Assembly (NCBI GenBank): GCA_903930585.1
Contig: CAIYZD010000468.1
Coordinates: forward strand, 1 to 37,574
Length of the DNA: 37,574 nucleotides
Origin: an uncultured Geobacteraceae bacterium
GTDB lineage: Bacteria > Desulfobacterota > Desulfuromonadia > Geobacterales > Pseudopelobacteraceae
Reading direction: 5' to 3'
Part shown: piece by piece, positions 30,022 through 37,574 of the stretch
Numbering within the stretch: the first letter of the stretch is position 1
How the letters are laid out: each line of letters opens with the position of its first letter
The notes under the pieces: generated by a model
What the model was told of the DNA's origin: nothing
Database searches by the model: none
What the model saw: only the letters and a program-made list of their open reading frames with translations
Position numbers and translations under genes: made by a program

Positions 30022-33000
30022 ATGTCAATCCGAAAAATGAAGCCGGCCTTGAAGCACGATAACTCCAGTTGCAATAACTCCGGGACAAGCGAAATAGAAC
30101 CCGAAGTCGATGAGGTTTCGCAATCTTATTCACGGCAGGAAACCGGCCATAATTTCCCTATTGTCGGCATTGGCGCATCTGCCGGAGGGTTGACTGCCTT
30201 TGAAGCATTTTTTTCCGGAATGCCGTCCGACAAAGACCCGAATATGGCTTTTGTACTTGTGCAGCATCTGGCTCCCGATCATCACAGTATTCTTGTTGAT
30301 CTGGTAAGACGCTATACCCGCATGCAGGTCTTTGAGGTCGAAGATGGCATTGAGGTGCAGGCCAACTGTGTGTATGTCGTTCCCCCCAATCACGATATGG
30401 CCTTATTAAACAGCAGGCTCCATCTGTTGGAACCGACCGCTCCGCGAGGTCGGCGACTGCCGATTGACTTCTTTTTTCGCTCTCTCGCCCAGGATCAAAA
30501 TGATCGGGCGATCTGCATCGTCCTTTCCGGGACCGCCAGTGATGGCACGCTGGGGGTGCGGGCGGTCAAAGGCGCCGGGGGGTTGGTTATGGCCCAGACG
30601 CCGGAAACTACCGAGTATGATGGAATGCCGCGCAGCGCCATTTCCACCGGTCTGGTGGACTTTGTCCTGCCTCCGGCGGAGATGCCTGCCCAACTTATCG
30701 CGTATGTATCCCGCGTTTTCGATATAACCGCCAAGGATTCTGCAATTGAGAATTCGCTGAAGAAAATATTTATTATTCTACGCGCCCAGACCGGACACGA
30801 CTTTTCCCTGTACAAGCCGAGTACCATTTACCGTCGCATTAAACGGCGTATGGCTGTCCAGCAGATTGAAACAATGGAAGGATACATTACCTACCTCCAG
30901 CACCATCCGGACGAGGTGGAATCTCTTTTTCAAGACTTTTTGATCGGTGTGACCAGTTTTTTCCGTGATCCCGAGTCGTTCCAGACGCTCGAACAAGAAA
31001 TAATTCCCCGGATATATGGTGGCAAACATACCGTCGATGTAATACGCGTCTGGTCGCCGGGGTGCTCCACCGGCGAGGAGGCGTATTCCATTGCGATCCT
31101 TCTGCAGGAGTGCATGGAAGCACTGAGAAAAAGTTTCACCATCCAGATATTCGCCACCGACATTGATAGTCAGGCGATTGCCACGGCCCGGGCCGGAATC
31201 TATCCGGCCAGCATCGCCGTTGACATAACTCCGGAGAGGCTGGCACGTTTTTTTGTTGCCGAATCCGGGGGGAACGCTTACCGCGTCCACAAAGGCATCC
31301 GGGAGATGATGGTTTTTTCTGAACACAACGTGATTCAAAACCCCCCCTTCTCAAAACTTGACCTCATCAGTTGCCGAAATCTTCTGATCTATATGGGGGG
31401 TGACCTGCAAAAACACCTTATTCCGATGTTTCATAACGCTTTAAATCCCGGCGGTATTCTCTTTCTGGGTACTTCGGAATCAGCAAGTAATTTCGGTAAT
31501 CTGTTTTCCGTGCTGGACAGTAAAGCGAAGCTGTATCAGCGCAAAGAATTCAATCATGTCTCCCGACGCACCGCCACAGCCCGTTTTACCCCTCCAATGT
31601 CGGCGGTGGATGCAACGCTTCGGCAAGGTGCTGTCAAAACAGAATTTCCGGTGAAACTGCCGTTACGTGATCTGACCGAGCAGGCACTTTTGCAGCAGAT
31701 CGCTCCCGCCGGTGCTCTTATTGACAGTCGCGGCGATATTCTCTATCTCCATGGCCGGACCGGGATGTACCTGGAACCTGCTTCGGGCGAGTCAGGTGTC
31801 AACAACATCCTGAAAATGGCCCGCGAAGGCTTACGACGTAAACTGTCAGTTGCCCTGCAAAAGTGTGCTGCAGGTAAAGAGGTCGTGCGCTGCCCGAATC
31901 TGCGAGTTAAAACCAACGGTCACTACACCATGGTTAACCTGAGCATTCGCCCGGTAGCAGCCCCTGCGATAAGACAGGATGTGCCTCTGTATATTGTCGT
32001 TCTTGAAGAAGCCCCACCATCAGAACATGTGAGCAGCGATTCCATATTGGATACTGACGCACGTATTCTGGCGCTCGAACAGGAATTGCAGAGCAATGAA
32101 GACTATATCCGGGACAGCAGTCTGGCTATGGAGAATTACAGCGAAGAGCTTAAATCCGCTAATGAAGAGTTAATGTCGGTGAATGAGGAGTTGCAATCCG
32201 CCAACGAGGAGCTGGAGACATCTCAGGAGGAGCTGCAATCCGCCAATGAAGAACTGATAACGCTTAATACCGAACTTCAGGCCAAGGTAGCAGAAATTCT
32301 GCGGACCCATAACGATATGAACAACCTGCTGTCCGGCACCGGCATTGCTACCATTTTTCTGGACCATCAGCTGCGTATCCTTCGTTTTACTCCCACCGCT
32401 ACTCAGATCACGAACCTGATCCTGAGCGATGTGGGAAGGCCCATTCGGCAGATAGTGTCTAATCTGGTCGATTATGACAGCCTGATATCCGACATACAGT
32501 CGGTGCTGGATACGCTGAAACATAAAGAGGTTGAGGTGCAGACAACGGAAGGGACATGGTACATGATGCGCATTCAGCCATATGTCACGATTGACAATGT
32601 GATCGACGGCGCTGTGATCAACTTTGTAGACATCTCTGAAAACAAAAAACTGCGGGATCGTTTGCAGAAAGCCAATGCAGAAACGCGCATGGCGATGGTC
32701 GTGCGTGACGCTTACGATGCCATCACTTTGCAGGATCTGAACGGCGCCATCCTGGCCTGGAACCCGGGAGCCGAGAGGATGTACGGTTGGAGTGAAGCAG
32801 AGGCGCTTACGATGAATATCCGCGACCGGATTCCGGAACGGGTGCAACATGATGAGCTGGTTGTAATACAAAGACTCAGTCAGGCTGAAAATCTGGAACC
32901 ATATAGTACCGAACGCCTTACCAAAAGTGGTGCTGTCGTGGAAGTGTGGCTTACCGCCACCGCTCTGATGAATGAGGCCGGGGTGATGTACGCGATTGTG

Positions 33001-33057
33001 ACAACGGAACGGGCGAGAGAATCAACAGTTTTGCGGAATGCCGGGGGGCCACAATGA
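30022..33057 (+). CDS. CheB-CheR-PAS fusion protein (chemotaxis-type methylesterase/methyltransferase with sensory domains)
   Basis: This 1011-residue signalling protein fuses several modules. A CheB methylesterase domain spans about residues 45-235, with catalytic Ser53 (GASAGG), His82 (VQHLAPDHHS) and Asp174 (TASDGTLG). A CheR domain spans about 250-500, with the N-terminal YRRIKRRM helix, SAM-binding WSPGCSTGEEAYS near 342-354 and CRNLLIYM near 450. A long Glu/Asn-rich coiled coil (repeats of SANEEL) runs from about 700 to 760. Two PAS-type domains follow to the C-terminus. There is no receiver domain before CheB. All catalytic residues are kept. GGGAG precedes the ATG. Its stop overlaps the hybrid kinase gene (ATGA), so the two proteins likely act together. 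Confidence 0.93.
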   Translation: MSIRKMKPALKHDNSSCNNSGTSEIEPEVDEVSQSYSRQETGHNFPIVGIGASAGGLTAFEAFFSGMPSDKDPNMAFVLVQHLAPDHHSILVDLVRRYTRMQVFEVEDGIEVQANCVYVVPPNHDMALLNSRLHLLEPTAPRGRRLPIDFFFRSLAQDQNDRAICIVLSGTASDGTLGVRAVKGAGGLVMAQTPETTEYDGMPRSAISTGLVDFVLPPAEMPAQLIAYVSRVFDITAKDSAIENSLKKIFIILRAQTGHDFSLYKPSTIYRRIKRRMAVQQIETMEGYITYLQHHPDEVESLFQDFLIGVTSFFRDPESFQTLEQEIIPRIYGGKHTVDVIRVWSPGCSTGEEAYSIAILLQECMEALRKSFTIQIFATDIDSQAIATARAGIYPASIAVDITPERLARFFVAESGGNAYRVHKGIREMMVFSEHNVIQNPPFSKLDLISCRNLLIYMGGDLQKHLIPMFHNALNPGGILFLGTSESASNFGNLFSVLDSKAKLYQRKEFNHVSRRTATARFTPPMSAVDATLRQGAVKTEFPVKLPLRDLTEQALLQQIAPAGALIDSRGDILYLHGRTGMYLEPASGESGVNNILKMAREGLRRKLSVALQKCAAGKEVVRCPNLRVKTNGHYTMVNLSIRPVAAPAIRQDVPLYIVVLEEAPPSEHVSSDSILDTDARILALEQELQSNEDYIRDSSLAMENYSEELKSANEELMSVNEELQSANEELETSQEELQSANEELITLNTELQAKVAEILRTHNDMNNLLSGTGIATIFLDHQLRILRFTPTATQITNLILSDVGRPIRQIVSNLVDYDSLISDIQSVLDTLKHKEVEVQTTEGTWYMMRIQPYVTIDNVIDGAVINFVDISENKKLRDRLQKANAETRMAMVVRDAYDAITLQDLNGAILAWNPGAERMYGWSEAEALTMNIRDRIPERVQHDELVVIQRLSQAENLEPYSTERLTKSGAVVEVWLTATALMNEAGVMYAIVTTERARESTVLRNAGGPQ

Positions 33058-35132
33058 CTGACAGGGTTGGGCAGCCAAGACGGACCGATGAACTACGACG
33101 ACGTGCTGAAGAGTTGGCACGGGAAAATGAAGCGGGATTGCCGGACGAAACCCTGCAGACGCTCTACGAACTTCGGGTGCATCAGATCGAACTGGAGATG
33201 CAGAGCGAGGAACTGCGCCGCATGCAGCATGATCTGGAGGCTTCGCAACGACGCTACTTTGCCCTGTACGACCAAGCGCCGGTCGGGTATCTGACCATTG
33301 ACGAACGCGGGGTGATTCAAGAGGCAAATATCACCGCTGCAACTATGCTTGATACCGCACAAAATGATCTGCTCAAGAAACCGATTACTCAGATCATCTT
33401 CCGTGAAGATCAAACCGTCTATTATCTGTACCAGAAAAAAGTCATTGGTACGGATAAAGCTGAAGAGTGCGAATTGCGCCTGGTGCGAGCCGACGGTTCT
33501 CCATTTTGGGCGCGTCTGCTGACCTTTCATGAACCTAATGGCGAATTCTGGATTGTGTGGACCGACATTACGGAACGCAAGCGAACGGAAGAAGCGTTAC
33601 AAAAAAGTGAAGCGCGTTTCCGGGCCATCTTTGAACGCTCCACTGTCGGTAAGGCGCTAACGGGATCTGATGAGAAGCTTCTCCATGTCAACCAGGCGTT
33701 TGCGGATATGCTGGGCTATACGGTCGACGAAATTCAGCAGCTTTACTTTGGGCAAATCACCCATCCGGACGACATGGCGGCAAGTAAGGAATGCATTCGC
33801 ATCCTCATGGCGGGCGAGCAGGCCTCGCATCGATTTGAAAAGCGGTACATCCATAAGAGCGGTACTGCCGTCTGGGCTGATGTCAGCGCCACTATGCTGT
33901 GCGATGAGCAAGGAACGTCACAAAATGTAATTATCAGCATAGTGGACATAACTGCGCGCAAGCGGGCTGAAGAAGAAAGGCTGCTGCTTGAGAGACAACT
34001 CCAGCAAGCACAGAAAATGGAGGCAATTGGACAATTGGCCGGAGGAGTCGCCCATGACTTTAATAACAAACTGATGGTAATTATGGGAAATGTAACACTT
34101 GCCCAGATGAATATTGATGACCATGACAGGGTGATAAAACATCTGGAAGAGATAAATAGGGCTGCAGAACTTTCCCGTGACATTGCGTCCCGGTTGCTCA
34201 CGTTCTCACGACGGCAGGTAATCTGTCCACAGATTCTGAAAGCAAATCATGTTATAGCAGAATCACTTAAATCGCTCACCAGGCTCATCGGCGAACATAT
34301 TGCCATTACGTTTATTCCCGACGATACTCTCTGGAATATCCAGATTGATCCCGTTCAGCTTGATCAGGTCGTTATGAATCTGGCGGTTAACGCCCGGGAT
34401 GCGATGCCGGATGGAGGTACGTTTGCCATCAAATCAAAAAATGTCACTATGGACAGTGTTAGCTGCGTTTCCAACATTGCCTGCGTTCCTGGTGAATATG
34501 TCTGTATATCGTTCAATGACAGTGGTACCGGCATGAGTCAAGAGACACTAACACGTATATTTGAACCTTTTTTTACCACAAAGGTCGTTGGAAAGGGGAC
34601 AGGTCTTGGCCTTGCAACGATCTACGGTATAATTAACCAGAATAAGGGATTTATTGATGTCGTTTCTACCCTTGGTAGTGGAACTACTTTCAATATCTAC
34701 CTCCCGCGGTATGATTCACCTGTTACGGAGTCCATTAAGGTGAATGACACGTTCTCTTTATTCAGTGGTTCGATATTGCTGATTGAAGACGAGGACGCGC
34801 TGAGACGGGTTACAGCGCAGTTCCTGAAAGCAATCGGTTTTAGCGTGTATGAGGCCGCAACTCCTTGTAATGCCCTGGAATTGGCCCACGATCACTCGAT
34901 CCAATTTGATGTGGTGCTGACAGATTTTATCATGCCGGAAATGAACGGGAATGTTTTAGTGGAACGGATACGGGAAATCAGGCCGGACATAAAGTACCTT
35001 TTTGTATCCGGCTACTCAGCTGACCATGCTGCACTGGCCGGAGGGACAATTTCCGGCGGTACTTTTATTCAAAAACCGTATGACCTTAAAAAACTGAGTG
35101 AACAGTTGAAACGGGTAATCAACTCTAAGTAA
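33054..35132 (+). CDS. PAS-PAS hybrid sensor histidine kinase with C-terminal receiver domain
   Basis: The 692-residue cytoplasmic kinase starts with a short coiled coil (EELARENEAGLPDETLQTLYE), then PAS1 at about 70-180 and PAS2 with a PAC motif at about 190-310. The HisKA box KMEAIGQLAGGVAHDFNNKL follows, with phosphoacceptor His334. The HATPase_c domain has an N-box (VMNLAVNARDAMPDGG) and G-boxes (NDSGTGMSQET, GKGTGLGLATIYGI). A receiver domain at about 570-690 has phosphoacceptor Asp624 (VVLTDFIMPEMNG). The H-box with HDFNN is typical of PAS hybrid kinases. No transmembrane segment is visible. The gene is coupled to the CheB-CheR gene and converges on the response-regulator gene. Confidence 0.94.
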   Translation: MTDRVGQPRRTDELRRRAEELARENEAGLPDETLQTLYELRVHQIELEMQSEELRRMQHDLEASQRRYFALYDQAPVGYLTIDERGVIQEANITAATMLDTAQNDLLKKPITQIIFREDQTVYYLYQKKVIGTDKAEECELRLVRADGSPFWARLLTFHEPNGEFWIVWTDITERKRTEEALQKSEARFRAIFERSTVGKALTGSDEKLLHVNQAFADMLGYTVDEIQQLYFGQITHPDDMAASKECIRILMAGEQASHRFEKRYIHKSGTAVWADVSATMLCDEQGTSQNVIISIVDITARKRAEEERLLLERQLQQAQKMEAIGQLAGGVAHDFNNKLMVIMGNVTLAQMNIDDHDRVIKHLEEINRAAELSRDIASRLLTFSRRQVICPQILKANHVIAESLKSLTRLIGEHIAITFIPDDTLWNIQIDPVQLDQVVMNLAVNARDAMPDGGTFAIKSKNVTMDSVSCVSNIACVPGEYVCISFNDSGTGMSQETLTRIFEPFFTTKVVGKGTGLGLATIYGIINQNKGFIDVVSTLGSGTTFNIYLPRYDSPVTESIKVNDTFSLFSGSILLIEDEDALRRVTAQFLKAIGFSVYEAATPCNALELAHDHSIQFDVVLTDFIMPEMNGNVLVERIREIRPDIKYLFVSGYSADHAALAGGTISGGTFIQKPYDLKKLSEQLKRVINSK

Positions 35133-35167: not shown

Positions 35168-35569
35168 CTACATTTCCGAATAATGAAAATGCAGTGAAGT
35201 TACTATTCGAGCTCTGTCATATGGTTTTAATATATAGTCATCACAGAGATTTTCGAGCACTAATTCAGATTTCACCCAAGGACAGGTGTTCGAAGTTACC
35301 ACAAATACCTTCGTATGCCCGTCCCCAAACGACAGGTTGTCTGCTTCAATTTTTTTGATTTCACGAACTAATGCCAACCCATTCATTACGGGCATCATAA
35401 GATCAACACAGACGAGACTGTAAGGCTTTCCACTACTCAATGCCTGCTCAAATAGTCGCAGTCCTGCTTCGCCATTTACCGCTGAATCAGTTGGAGCATA
35501 CACGGATAATATATCGGTGAGCATTGTTCTGCTCATTTCTTCATCTTCAACTACCAGAAATCTTTTCAT
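35168..35569 (-). CDS. Single-domain response regulator (CheY-like)
   Basis: This 133-residue protein is a receiver domain only: the acidic pocket VVEDEE at 6-11, phosphoacceptor Asp56 in VDLMMPVMNG, and the conserved Lys115 in YILKPYD. It has no output domain, so it must signal by protein contact or as a phosphorelay intermediate. The kinase facing it across 35 bases is an obvious candidate partner, but this is inferred from proximity only. GAGGG lies about 8 bases upstream of the ATG. Its 5' leader holds a GEMM-I riboswitch and terminator, so its transcription is expected to depend on a cyclic dinucleotide. Confidence 0.93.
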   Translation of the reverse strand: MKRFLVVEDEEMSRTMLTDILSVYAPTDSAVNGEAGLRLFEQALSSGKPYSLVCVDLMMPVMNGLALVREIKKIEADNLSFGDGHTKVFVVTSNTCPWVKSELVLENLCDDYILKPYDRARIVTSLHFHYSEM

Positions 35570-35583
35570 GCGAGATCCCTCAA

Positions 35584-35617
35584 AATAAAAAAACCCTTCT
35601 CTCGAAAGATAGAAGGG
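35584..35617 (-). terminator. Riboswitch-associated terminator, response-regulator leader
   Basis: On the minus strand CCCTTCT and AGAAGGG (35611-35617 and 35594-35600 in plus coordinates) form a stem capped by CT-TTCG-AG, followed by a run of seven T residues and further T-rich sequence. It lies between the aptamer and the start codon. The 5' arm can instead pair with AGAGGGT transcribed just before it (plus 35628-35634), so terminator and antiterminator are mutually exclusive. Confidence 0.88.
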
Positions 35618-35637
35618 TCAATGAATAACCCTCTTTT

Positions 35638-35720
35638 TGGCAACCCGACTATCCCTGTTCAAATGGACTCGTAGCTTTGCGTCCTCAGGTTACCCTGAGT
35701 TTGCCTTGTTTGCGGAGAGG
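35638..35720 (-). promoter_or_regulatory. GEMM-I cyclic dinucleotide riboswitch, copy 1
   Basis: Read on the minus strand, the leader has the GEMM-I (c-di-GMP-I) landmarks in order. P1 5' strand is GCAAAC (35708-35713). Then come GGCAAAC, a P2 hairpin with CTCAGG and CCTGAG around a GTAA (GNRA) tetraloop, the invariant GACGCAAAGC, a P3 arm with GAGTCC and GGATAGTC, and the closing P1 strand GGGTTGCC (about 35639-35646). The position equivalent to G20 of the Vc2 aptamer is G, which favours c-di-GMP over cAMP-GMP. It is transcribed toward the response-regulator gene. Confidence 0.88.
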
Positions 35721-35887
35721 AACTATTTGTACGTCTTATATGTCATGCACTAGTATCGAAACTAATGTGTGCGAAATAATAGCTAAGAAACCTTAACGGA
35801 ATATTAAGAGAGAAAAAATACTATTGGGGTACGAGCGGGGCAAGTTATATACGTTATGGGCGTCATCTGGTTTTTCACTCTCCCCTT

Positions 35888-37297
35888 TTAGCCGGCAGCG
35901 TTCACCTGCTCATGCTCGCCGGCGATTATATTTTCTATATCGGAGGCCTTTACAAACAAGTCCGTGAACGGCAGATATCTGAAACCACCTTTGCGAGAAT
36001 TCTCTATGATACTGGTGCTGGCAGTGATTTTCTCTTTGATGTCTTTCATGGAAACCCCAATGGTGATCTGCGTTTTTTCGTACATTATATCCTTTACATT
36101 GATCTTGGGATTCCTGTTTGGATATTCCTTGTTCCGGATAGCCACTATCCGGTTGGATAACGCCGCAATCTCCTCCTTTAGCTCCCTTTTCCTCATGAGC
36201 GATACAGAACAGTCATATTGCAACTGGGCTTCTTCTAACTCAGCCATAATGCCTTTGATTTCATGTAAATCAAAATAACTGCTACCAGCGTTAAGAACAG
36301 TGGGAATTGATGACGATTTGGAACCGATGATTTTACTCTCGATGCCACCCAGCGCCACGCAGACGCCACCCATTATCGCCCCCTTTTCAACGACAACCTT
36401 CCCGAGGGATTTAATAGTACAGTTGTGGATTTCGACTGACACAATGACATCTCCGGCACACTCAATCGTAACATCATGCAGGTAGTTGGCGTAGATATTG
36501 CCGCCGGCGAATATACGGCCTTTGTCACGACCATCTATACCGCAGAAGGTAACATTGCCCTCGGTGTTGATATTACAGGCTCCAATGTTGCCTGCAACTT
36601 TTACCCCCTTGGTGGCCTTGACATCAAAGTGGTCCCGGATTTCGCCCCGGATATCAACCACTCCCTTGAAGTCAATTATGCCGACCCTGAAATTCACGTT
36701 TCCATGTACTATATATTCGTCTTCCACAGAGACTTCGAATGGTGTCTGCACAAATCGACCTGTAATTGAGGCTATCAGCCGACCTCCATCCTCCTGGCGG
36801 ATGTTTTTTCCGATCTTTACCCTCATCGGTTTGCCGGGAACGGGGGGGACCATCCTGCCCAAAATGTTCCTGCCAGGCGTGCCTTCTTCGGCTGGAAAAA
36901 CGGTACCGATCTCGTCGTCTTTGTTGACGTTGATGAACGTCTGTACTCGGTACATGTTCACAGTTCCATCGTCGTTCTTTACGTCTGTATCGTCAGCCCT
37001 GGCTTTTATCTCCACTCGCTCGTCACCACCGTGGACAGGTGGAGTTCCGGACGCCACCAGCACATCTATCTGCTGTATTCCGGCTGCAGCGCGAGTAACG
37101 AATCTTTCCAAAGCGGTAAGGTCGAGCCCCTCGTTGACATTGTACTGCTGAAGGTATATTTCAAACTCCTCGCGTGTCATCATTGCCCCCTTATCAGTCG
37201 GGATATAGCTGCAATGACACTGCATTTGATCCGGGGAAATGCGGATGTAGAGGTTGTAACCAACCAGTTTTATTGTATTGTTGTAAATATCAGTCAT
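35888..37297 (-). CDS. DUF342/FapA-family protein
   Basis: The 469-residue protein matches the DUF342 (FapA) family. A mixed N-terminal region (about 1-170) contains GTPPVHGGDERVE and FPAEEGTPGRNILGRMVPPVPGKP, both typical. A central right-handed beta-helix (about 175-370) has repeated short strands and glycines (VKVAGNIGACNINTEGNVTF, GGNIYANYLHDVTIECAGDV, GVCVALGGIESKIIGS). The C-terminal part is coiled coil. Family members are cytoplasmic and have been linked to flagellar assembly, polymer or surface functions, but the biochemical role is not established. I chose the ATG at 37297; a longer frame would begin at a TTG inside the riboswitch expression platform. The ribosome site is weak (GAGAAAAG). 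Confidence 0.88.
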   Translation of the reverse strand: MTDIYNNTIKLVGYNLYIRISPDQMQCHCSYIPTDKGAMMTREEFEIYLQQYNVNEGLDLTALERFVTRAAAGIQQIDVLVASGTPPVHGGDERVEIKARADDTDVKNDDGTVNMYRVQTFINVNKDDEIGTVFPAEEGTPGRNILGRMVPPVPGKPMRVKIGKNIRQEDGGRLIASITGRFVQTPFEVSVEDEYIVHGNVNFRVGIIDFKGVVDIRGEIRDHFDVKATKGVKVAGNIGACNINTEGNVTFCGIDGRDKGRIFAGGNIYANYLHDVTIECAGDVIVSVEIHNCTIKSLGKVVVEKGAIMGGVCVALGGIESKIIGSKSSSIPTVLNAGSSYFDLHEIKGIMAELEEAQLQYDCSVSLMRKRELKEEIAALSNRIVAIRNKEYPNRNPKINVKDIMYEKTQITIGVSMKDIKEKITASTSIIENSRKGGFRYLPFTDLFVKASDIENIIAGEHEQVNAAG

Positions 37298-37313
37298 TTT
37301 GTTTCTTTTCTCA

Positions 37314-37347
37314 TAATAAAAAACCCCTCTCTCGAAAGACAGAAGGG
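37314..37347 (-). terminator. Riboswitch-associated terminator, DUF342 leader
   Basis: The minus strand carries CCCTTCT, a CT-TTCG-AG cap and AGAGGGG (plus 37341-37347 and 37324-37330), with one G-T pair, followed by six T residues. As in the other copy, the 5' arm can pair with an upstream AGAGGGT (plus 37358-37364) to form an antiterminator. Confidence 0.86.
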
Positions 37348-37368
37348 TCAATGAATAACCCTCTTTTT

Positions 37369-37450
37369 GGCAGCCCGACTATCCATATTCTAAAAGGACT
37401 CGTAGCTTTGCGTCCCCAAGTTACCCTGAGTTTGCCCTGTTTGCAGAGAG
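37369..37450 (-). promoter_or_regulatory. GEMM-I cyclic dinucleotide riboswitch, copy 2
   Basis: This element is nearly identical to the copy at 35638-35720. It has the P1 strand GCAAAC, GGGCAAAC, P2 with a GTAA tetraloop (CTCAGG/CTTGGG, with wobble pairs), GACGCAAAGC, a P3 arm ending GGATAGTC, and a P1 closing strand GGGCTGCC with one more mismatch than copy 1. The G20-equivalent is again G. It lies in the leader of the DUF342 gene. Sequence conservation extends some 40 bases upstream of the aptamer. Confidence 0.88.
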
Positions 37451-37480
37451 GAACTGTTTGTACGTTTTACATGTTATGCA

Positions 37481-37486
37481 ATTATA
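37481..37486 (-). promoter_or_regulatory. Putative -10 box for the DUF342 riboswitch transcript
   Basis: TATAAT on the minus strand lies about 30 bases upstream of the aptamer. The -35 region is poor (TTATAT at 18-base spacing). Copy 1 has only a degenerate TACTAG at the equivalent place. Confidence 0.35.
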
Positions 37487-37555
37487 GTAATTCCGTATGC
37501 GTCTATATAACCTGATTATAAACCGTTGGAATAGTCGGATAACCGCTGATTTTTT

Positions 37556-37574
37556 TGTAAGAATTTTTCTTACA
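37556..37574. repeat. Perfect 8-bp inverted repeat at the window edge
   Basis: TGTAAGAA and TTCTTACA flank a 3-base centre, next to a run of seven T residues on the left. It could be an operator upstream of the DUF342 promoter, or a weak AT-rich hairpin belonging to a gene outside the window. It is cut off by the window end, so its context cannot be judged. Confidence 0.4.

Follow-up and report, generated by a model that had tools for sequence, protein, structure and literature searches.

A locally duplicated pair of GEMM-I riboswitch cassettes, probably c-di-GMP-responsive OFF switches, precedes adjacent receiver-domain and DUF342 genes in an uncultured Geobacteraceae bacterium

The window considered here, namely, the whole stretch of 37,574 nucleotides that was analyzed, corresponds to the entire contig C468 of the genome of an uncultured Geobacteraceae bacterium (5.89 Mb in 854 contigs; 93% complete, 5.3% contaminated). 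As judged through the DUF342 protein encoded therein, the nearest named relatives are metagenome genomes of Geobacteraceae and Desulfuromonadaceae at five of six loci, the sixth being from Pseudothermotoga. Near one end of the window, two minus-strand genes, respectively encoding a receiver-domain (REC) protein and a DUF342/FapA protein, are each preceded by a leader containing an aptamer, a switching strand and a terminator, referred to as cassette 1 and cassette 2 (Table 1). A plus-strand operon encoding a CheB-CheR-PAS protein and a PAS-kinase-REC hybrid protein converges on this pair.

Table 1. Features of the cassette pair, its upstream element and the neighboring genes.
Feature	Position	Strand	Basis
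CheB-CheR-PAS protein, convergent neighbor, outside the control of both switches	30022..33057	+	Pfam
PAS-kinase-REC hybrid protein, convergent neighbor	33054..35132	+	Pfam
Receiver-domain protein, 133 aa, behind cassette 1	35168..35569	-	Pfam Response_reg 3.5e-12; GAGGGA before ATG (by eye)
Cassette 1: leader, aptamer, switching strand, terminator	35588..35749	-	Direct repeat families D1, D2
Cassette 1 terminator hairpin, then U-run	35592..35619	-	-13.4 kcal/mol, hairpin search
Cassette 1 switching strand AGAGGGU (P1 3' strand or antiterminator strand)	35628..35634	-	Hairpin search, fold states
GEMM-I aptamer 1	35635..35714	-	RF03167 62.5 bits, RF01051 68.4 bits, R1 alignment
Aptamer 1 pocket bases	G20 35705, A47 35678, C92 35640	-	R1 alignment; coordinates counted by hand
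Cassette 1 P1 5' strand UCCUCU	35716..35721	-	Fold states
DUF342/FapA protein, 469 aa, behind cassette 2	35888..37297	-	Pfam FapA 7.6e-40, FapA_N 1.1e-38
Cassette 2: leader, aptamer, switching strand, terminator	37318..37480	-	Direct repeats; 91% identity to cassette 1
Cassette 2 terminator hairpin, then U-run	37322..37349	-	-15.7 kcal/mol, hairpin search
Cassette 2 switching strand AGAGGGU	37358..37364	-	Hairpin search, fold states
GEMM-I aptamer 2	37365..37445	-	RF03167 60.4 bits, RF01051 64.5 bits, R1 alignment
Aptamer 2 pocket bases	G20 37436, A47 37409, C92 37370	-	R1 alignment; coordinates counted by hand
Cassette 2 P1 5' strand UCCUCU	37447..37452	-	Fold states
Upstream element: palindrome TGTAAGAA-AAA-TTCTTACA plus ATCAGCNNTTATCSGACTNTTC	37529..37574	-	Pattern search of the genome

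An earlier note on this DNA had read both sites as minus-strand GEMM-I cassettes and had proposed a covariance-model search, which bore out this reading. Specifically, cmscan of the whole window with 4227 families returned two matches above gathering, both on the minus strand and both to RF03167, with E-values of 1.3e-12 (aptamer 1) and 5.2e-12 (aptamer 2) and scores of 62.5 and 60.4 bits as compared to a cut-off of 59. RF01051 scores both sites higher, at 68.4 and 64.5 bits with a cut-off of 35, and each copy presents the P2 with a GUAA (GNRA) loop, the P3 and the three-way junction of that family. Among 15 aligned relatives, pairing is retained in 99.6% of the 285 P2 and P3 cells. Two-sided changes are seen in 14 cells, as compared to 4.4 in shuffles, with none of 500 shuffles being as high, while four pairs present such a change, as compared to 2.3 in shuffles, with 19 of 500 reaching four. 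The pocket bases are given in what we take to be Vc2 numbering, where nt 20 is the base before P2, nt 47 is the first J2/3 base and nt 92 is the second J1/3 base. This numbering agrees with the junctions of the cGAMP aptamer in passages of PMC6274999, which were used for the mapping. According to the R1 alignment, nt 20/47/92 read G/A/C in both copies, the c-di-GMP combination. Both switches belong to a class that is already known, the c-di-GMP-I (GEMM-I) riboswitch.

The similarity of the two cassettes extends well beyond the aptamers. A blastn comparison yielded a single 172-nt match at 90.1% identity, and a repeat finder detected direct repeats in collinear order, one of 89 nt (90% identity) and one of 76 nt (92%). 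To place the copies among their relatives, 92 aptamers from 81 sources were considered, a non-random sample comprising mostly higher-scoring matches together with two from another search; a GEMM-I match was present in each of the 39 genomes, that of the window included. Among these 92 aptamers, the window copies are each other's nearest (86.4% identity; next, 80.0% and 77.8%). They are, moreover, sisters with support of 97/92 in a phylogeny of 45 window-type aptamers that excluded the nt-20 column, was built from few columns and has 21 of its 40 inner branches open. The blocks of 90% identity over 172 nt and this sister relationship substantiate the proposal that a regulatory cassette was duplicated. 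The two copies are clearly homologous from about GCAT(A/G)ACAT onward. The 70-nt regions upstream were rejected as clearly homologous, given how 104 of 2000 mononucleotide shuffles scored equally well. Since seven of 15 same-locus aptamer pairs, one each in G038, G036, G029, G026, G013, G014 and the genome of the window, are at least 82% identical (the remaining eight are at 45-65%), local duplication recurs within the group and is not unique to the window.

Alignment of the pair over 163 columns revealed 14 substitutions and two indels, with 10 substitutions falling in 91 unpaired columns and four in 72 paired columns. The description of the differences as pairing-preserving was right: all four differing paired columns retain a standard pair, as compared to the one in three expected of random change, but each by a one-sided change, with no two-sided compensation between the copies. 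The AGAGGGT antiterminator strand is, as had been described, identical in both copies, and the terminator with its U-run was found behind each aptamer by the hairpin search. As for the shared TTCG cap, the letters are present, but the loop in the predicted fold is UUUC, with a UUCG closed by U-A representing an alternative register (by eye).

The AGAGGGU strand has two possible partners, namely, UCCUCU before the aptamer, giving P1, or ACCCUU of the terminator. In both copies, the hairpin search placed the start of the terminator 21 nt past C92, separate from the aptamer. A simple terminator scan missed both cassette terminators, instead listing the antiterminator hairpin GAGGGTTATTCATTGACCCTT as terminator-like. 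When folded without the terminator 3' arm, the P1 and antiterminator states were at -24.3 and -25.4 kcal/mol in cassette 1 and at -23.7 and -24.8 kcal/mol in cassette 2, a gap of 1.1 kcal/mol in favor of the antiterminator in both copies; a ligand that binds the P1 form would tip this balance. Because the full terminator state (-38.2 and -39.9 kcal/mol) is far more stable than the antiterminator state (-25.4 and -24.8 kcal/mol), switching must be kinetic. When the short joining region was shuffled 300 times for each copy, the P1 and antiterminator pairings were jointly matched in one and 14 cases, respectively, while taken singly, each pairing was not beyond shuffles in either copy (6-14%). 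Not one of 50 GC-scaffold cassettes having a separate terminator passed 5% on both pairings singly; both pairings were at or below -7 and -6 kcal/mol in 28 of the 50. As a control, 16 pilM-like aptamers, in which the first P2 base is C, were considered. Here, the terminator overlaps the aptamer 3' end in all 13 cases where one was called, starting 9-16 nt before C92, with the other three having no called terminator. The hairpin classifier behind such calls is rough, labeling 24 of the 92 aptamers as ON-like and 16 as lacking a terminator; by eye, the separate terminator was apparently lost to a longer fold in the ON-like L242, L247, L222 (301-378), L128 and L182, with L237 being unclear.

From the computed aptamers, pocket bases, shared platform sequence, duplication and recurring REC-DUF342 pairing, we infer ligand, OFF direction and physiological meaning as follows. 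The locus probably contains a paralogous pair of transcription-terminating c-di-GMP-I riboswitches that arose by local leader duplication, each of which reads c-di-GMP and turns its gene off. Bound ligand would keep AGAGGG in P1, leaving the 5' arm ACCCUU free, which allows terminator formation and turns the gene off. When ligand is absent, AGAGGGU would pair with ACCCUU and RNA polymerase would continue into the REC or DUF342 gene. Low c-di-GMP would thus see REC and DUF342 co-produced, plausibly in a motile or surface-leaving state.

The opposite direction, in which the ligand blocks termination as in pilM, has precedent. Deletion of the cGAMP synthase reportedly lowered the expression of every gene behind a GEMM-Ib switch (PMC6456294), and the Geobacter cGAMP switches described there are therefore ON switches. 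Yet the window terminator does not use the aptamer P3/P1 strand, unlike pilM-type members, and the strand between C92 and the terminator can pair to either P1 or the terminator arm, making an ON switch improbable here. As for the ligand, the same source reports that nt 20 decides between cGAMP and c-di-GMP and that the A20G exchange turns a cGAMP aptamer into a c-di-GMP aptamer, while passages of PMC9049102 describe loss of ligand binding upon mutation of A47. At the same time, nt 20 alone is an imperfect guide, since changing this position to A or C in Cd1 had no large effect, according to PMC9262584. Both window switches most likely sense c-di-GMP, as judged by their pocket bases. That they instead sense cGAMP (GEMM-Ib), like many Geobacter GEMM-I riboswitches, would suit a Geobacter-like organism with one candidate Hypr GGDEF protein, as well as a tree in which the nearest aptamers include A20 members. 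Such sensing is, however, unlikely, given that both copies carry G20 and not the A20 of GEMM-Ib, that the A20G exchange is itself what confers c-di-GMP binding (PMC6456294), and that the layout differs from the GEMM-Ib ON layout. It is also very doubtful that the cassettes represent the variant class c-di-GMP-I-GGC, with an altered ligand. While cmscan kept RF03167 for both copies above gathering, RF01051 gives more bits, and the first J2/3 base is G in the RF03167 consensus but A in both window copies, with G at nt 47 occurring in none of the 92 surveyed aptamers. The GGC label, which we infer from the printed RF03167 consensus to denote nt 20, 47 and 92, is thus not backed, as G47 is absent, and this class was rejected.

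The genome contains 36 GGDEF matches, 30 with loci, of which 23 could be read by motif. At the relevant position of GHxxGD, 22 of the 23 have Asp and one has Ser; with seven of the 30 being unread and six more having no locus, further Ser-type proteins may be found among these 13. The Ser-type protein (L151 1471-2829, minus strand, contig C767) is a REC-GGDEF protein with GHLVGS and GGDEY motifs. In both the REC-GGDEF architecture and the Ser signature, it resembles the Hypr protein GacA, as presented in passages of PMC6456294, and is a candidate Hypr cGAMP synthase. It follows from the 22 Asp-type proteins and L151 that both c-di-GMP and cGAMP are probably made. L151 adjoins a frame that by eye looks like a histidyl-tRNA synthetase.

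The genes behind the two cassettes had been regarded as unrelated, a view that does not hold. A DUF342 match is present in 25 genomes, that of the window included, and in 14 of these a REC match begins on the same strand no more than 70 nt behind a DUF342 match (G005, G006, G009, G011, G012, G016, G017, G018, G020, G021, G022, G024, G030 and G035), and in G004 and G014 the two are part of one riboswitch-led operon. The DUF342 proteins of the 14 genomes are 37-40% identical to that of the window and so represent another branch; at the 10 of these loci examined, no GEMM-I aptamer was found upstream of the DUF342-REC pair in the stretch covered. The nearest REC orthologue (G013:C135; 56%) is also preceded by a DUF342 gene, at a distance of some 450 nt. 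A comparison of orthologous loci for single or double cassettes, as had been suggested, revealed no riboswitch at the nearest DUF342 paralogues or at the nearest REC orthologues (G013, G011 and G010). Because these paralogues, C85 (80%) and C133 (75%) of the same genome, are without such a leader, the window arrangement looks lineage-specific. Five Geobacteraceae and Desulfuromonadaceae loci of DUF342 relatives, with flanks of up to 8 kb, gave no Rfam match above gathering. When 69 DUF342/REC loci were searched with model R1, a riboswitch was detected upstream of the DUF342 operon in G004:C185 and G014:C70 and downstream in G020:C60, with the remaining weak match (E 0.28) being taken as chance. 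The G004 and G014 operons encode HU-like, REC-PAS, REC-HD and DUF342 proteins behind an A20 aptamer, as assigned by Pfam for three or four proteins per operon, with the HU-like frame having been tested in G004 only. Together with the window, they place receiver proteins and DUF342 behind GEMM-I in three genomes, in two layouts and with differing nt 20.

The two cassettes would place the receiver and DUF342 proteins under what is probably one second messenger, as had been envisaged. No sigma-70 promoter was called before either cassette. One possible, if tentative, reading is that of a single DUF342-REC transcript with two serial switches, the second acting as an attenuator within the transcript and reducing REC as compared to DUF342; this would be compatible with the favored explanation of each switch as a c-di-GMP OFF switch. 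The genes are co-directional, no strong terminator is seen by eye between the DUF342 stop codon and cassette 1, and no promoter was called before cassette 1, in line with such a transcript. On the other hand, cassette 1 retains the leader in full from near the presumed start onward and has GATACT near the position of the TATAAT of cassette 2 (by eye), which suggests a promoter of its own. The idea of a signaling unit beside the CheB-CheR/hybrid-kinase operon proved half right. Membership of this operon in the unit is not supported, since its genes run convergently on the plus strand and cmscan of the whole window detected no riboswitch there. Elsewhere in the genome, however, a sister cassette on contig C472 (L113 2174-2250) precedes a gene encoding a 1765-aa CheB-CheR-PAS-kinase-REC-REC protein (L113 2358-7655).

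This sister cassette shares 82% identity with cassette 1 over 137 nt and carries A20, giving the triple A/A/C; it is predicted to bind cGAMP and to have the OFF layout. The cmscan label for this cassette is RF03168 (UAU), even though its triple is A/A/C. In total, the genome contains at least 11 GEMM-I aptamers by RF01051, with 150 of 447 first-look candidates having been scored. Six modules are near-copies of one another, on contigs C277 (L181), C293 (L128), C669 (L184), C586 (L185), C76 (L182) and C564 (L183). Relative to the C277 copy, the remaining five show 90-95% identity over about 150-170 nt, with homology running from some 12-28 nt before the aptamer to near the terminator, and the six precede what by eye are six dissimilar genes; C277, C293 and C564 share sequence further upstream as well. 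A transposase was rejected as carrier of this family: the transposase-like protein near the C293 copy, presumably of the REP-associated type from its look, had a tblastn match at one of 19 loci of the genome. The aptamer on C167 was assigned the ON layout by the hairpin classifier, and an RF03167 match on C697 (17.8 bits, below the cut-off and not found by RF01051) was dismissed as a false positive.

The element upstream of cassette 2 likewise recurs in the genome. Its ATCAGCNNTTATCSGACTNTTC portion is common to four other GEMM-I leaders, and the palindrome TGTAAGAA-N3-TTCTTACA is present at several of the element sites. With up to two mismatches, nine genome matches were obtained (the window, C293, C472, C277, C564, two on C332, of which one is probably the window's own, C271 and C814), five of them before GEMM-I cassettes; with up to three mismatches, there were 17 matches, as compared to four for the reversed control pattern. 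The element looks like a regulator or sigma-factor site. The 3' end of C332 is identical over 103 nt to the window end (37472-37574, minus strand), such that C332 probably lies upstream of the DUF342 leader. On C332, a DUF4347 protein is found behind the same upstream element.

Within the survey of 92 aptamers, the nt 20/47/92 triple is G/A/C in 45, A/A/C in 22, G/A/U in 11, C/A/C in seven and G/A/G in four, with U/A/C, A/U/C and G/A/A each occurring once. Among the 45 window-type aptamers, nt 20 is G in 24, A in 14, C in six and U in one. On the tree of these, A20 requires eight changes (bootstrap 8-10), at least three of which are forced by starred branches, and a single A20 clade was rejected (AU p 0.0011). 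The nt-20 label is nonetheless clustered on the tree, with 1 of 500 shuffles being as low, so that nt 20 is partly inherited. Eleven A20 aptamers were called with a separate terminator, and in seven of these, both pairings were jointly reached by at most 5% of shuffles; such aptamers are predicted to have the OFF layout. Neither a cGAMP OFF riboswitch nor a DUF342 riboswitch is reported in the titles and abstract openings of the papers listed by literature searches, which is no proof of absence, nor is a cGAMP OFF switch described in the passages of the Geobacter literature considered. The C20 aptamers number seven (two in L223, and L226, L233, L249, L272 and L222 471-555). Two of these, L249 (G004) and L223 1460-1534 (G014), are followed by papain-family proteases, a hint that a regulon may be conserved. 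Eight further loci (L253, L259, L261, L262, L263, L264, L265 and L274) possibly have a different GEMM-I layout. By eye, and with variation among these loci, J1/2-P2 (GAAAAGGC-like) and not the P1 3' strand seems to be the complement of the terminator 5' arm (GCCUUUUC-like).

The REC-DUF342 pair joins those genes likely controlled by c-di-GMP in Geobacter-like bacteria, with a direction that can be tested, namely, off at high c-di-GMP. A dispersing cassette with a changing ligand base is, however, more interesting than the class of the window pair. We tentatively entertain the idea that the genus carries a portable OFF cassette of about 160 nt that is copied to new genes and in which nt 20 flips between G, A, C and U as scaffold and platform stay constant. 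If so, one module would wire genes to either c-di-GMP or cGAMP, giving rise to cGAMP OFF switches, with C20 perhaps serving another ligand. The window pair (G20), the C472 sister (A20) and the A20 cassettes of the receiver/HD/DUF342 operons in two relatives would then form one ligand-switched regulon. Sister cassettes in which nt 20 differs while scaffold and platform are retained offer a natural series for a change of ligand without a change of output, and also bear on whether cGAMP can turn genes off.

Relative to known systems, the window copies match c-di-GMP-I riboswitches (RF01051) in aptamer fold, G20/A47/C92 and score, and differ in being two paralogous copies before two adjacent genes, the only difference among the features tested. 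They resemble c-di-GMP-I-GGC (RF03167) in the family kept by cmscan and in a similar P3 sequence, but have A47 in place of the consensus G47. With the Geobacter GEMM-Ib cGAMP riboswitches, as described in parts of PMC6456294 and PMC8835794, they share a related host, the presence of several switches per genome and tandem copies, which in some GEMM-Ib loci stand before one gene. By contrast, those switches have A20, are ON switches and employ a terminator that uses the aptamer's own 3' strand, an overlap absent from both window copies. A parallel in logic is found in passages of PMC9262584 on the Cd1 OFF switch of Clostridioides difficile, where competition runs opposite to that in the cGAMP ON switch pilM. 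As proposed for the window pair, the Cd1 aptamer and terminator can coexist and compete with an antiterminator, with the platform sequence and the genes controlled being different.
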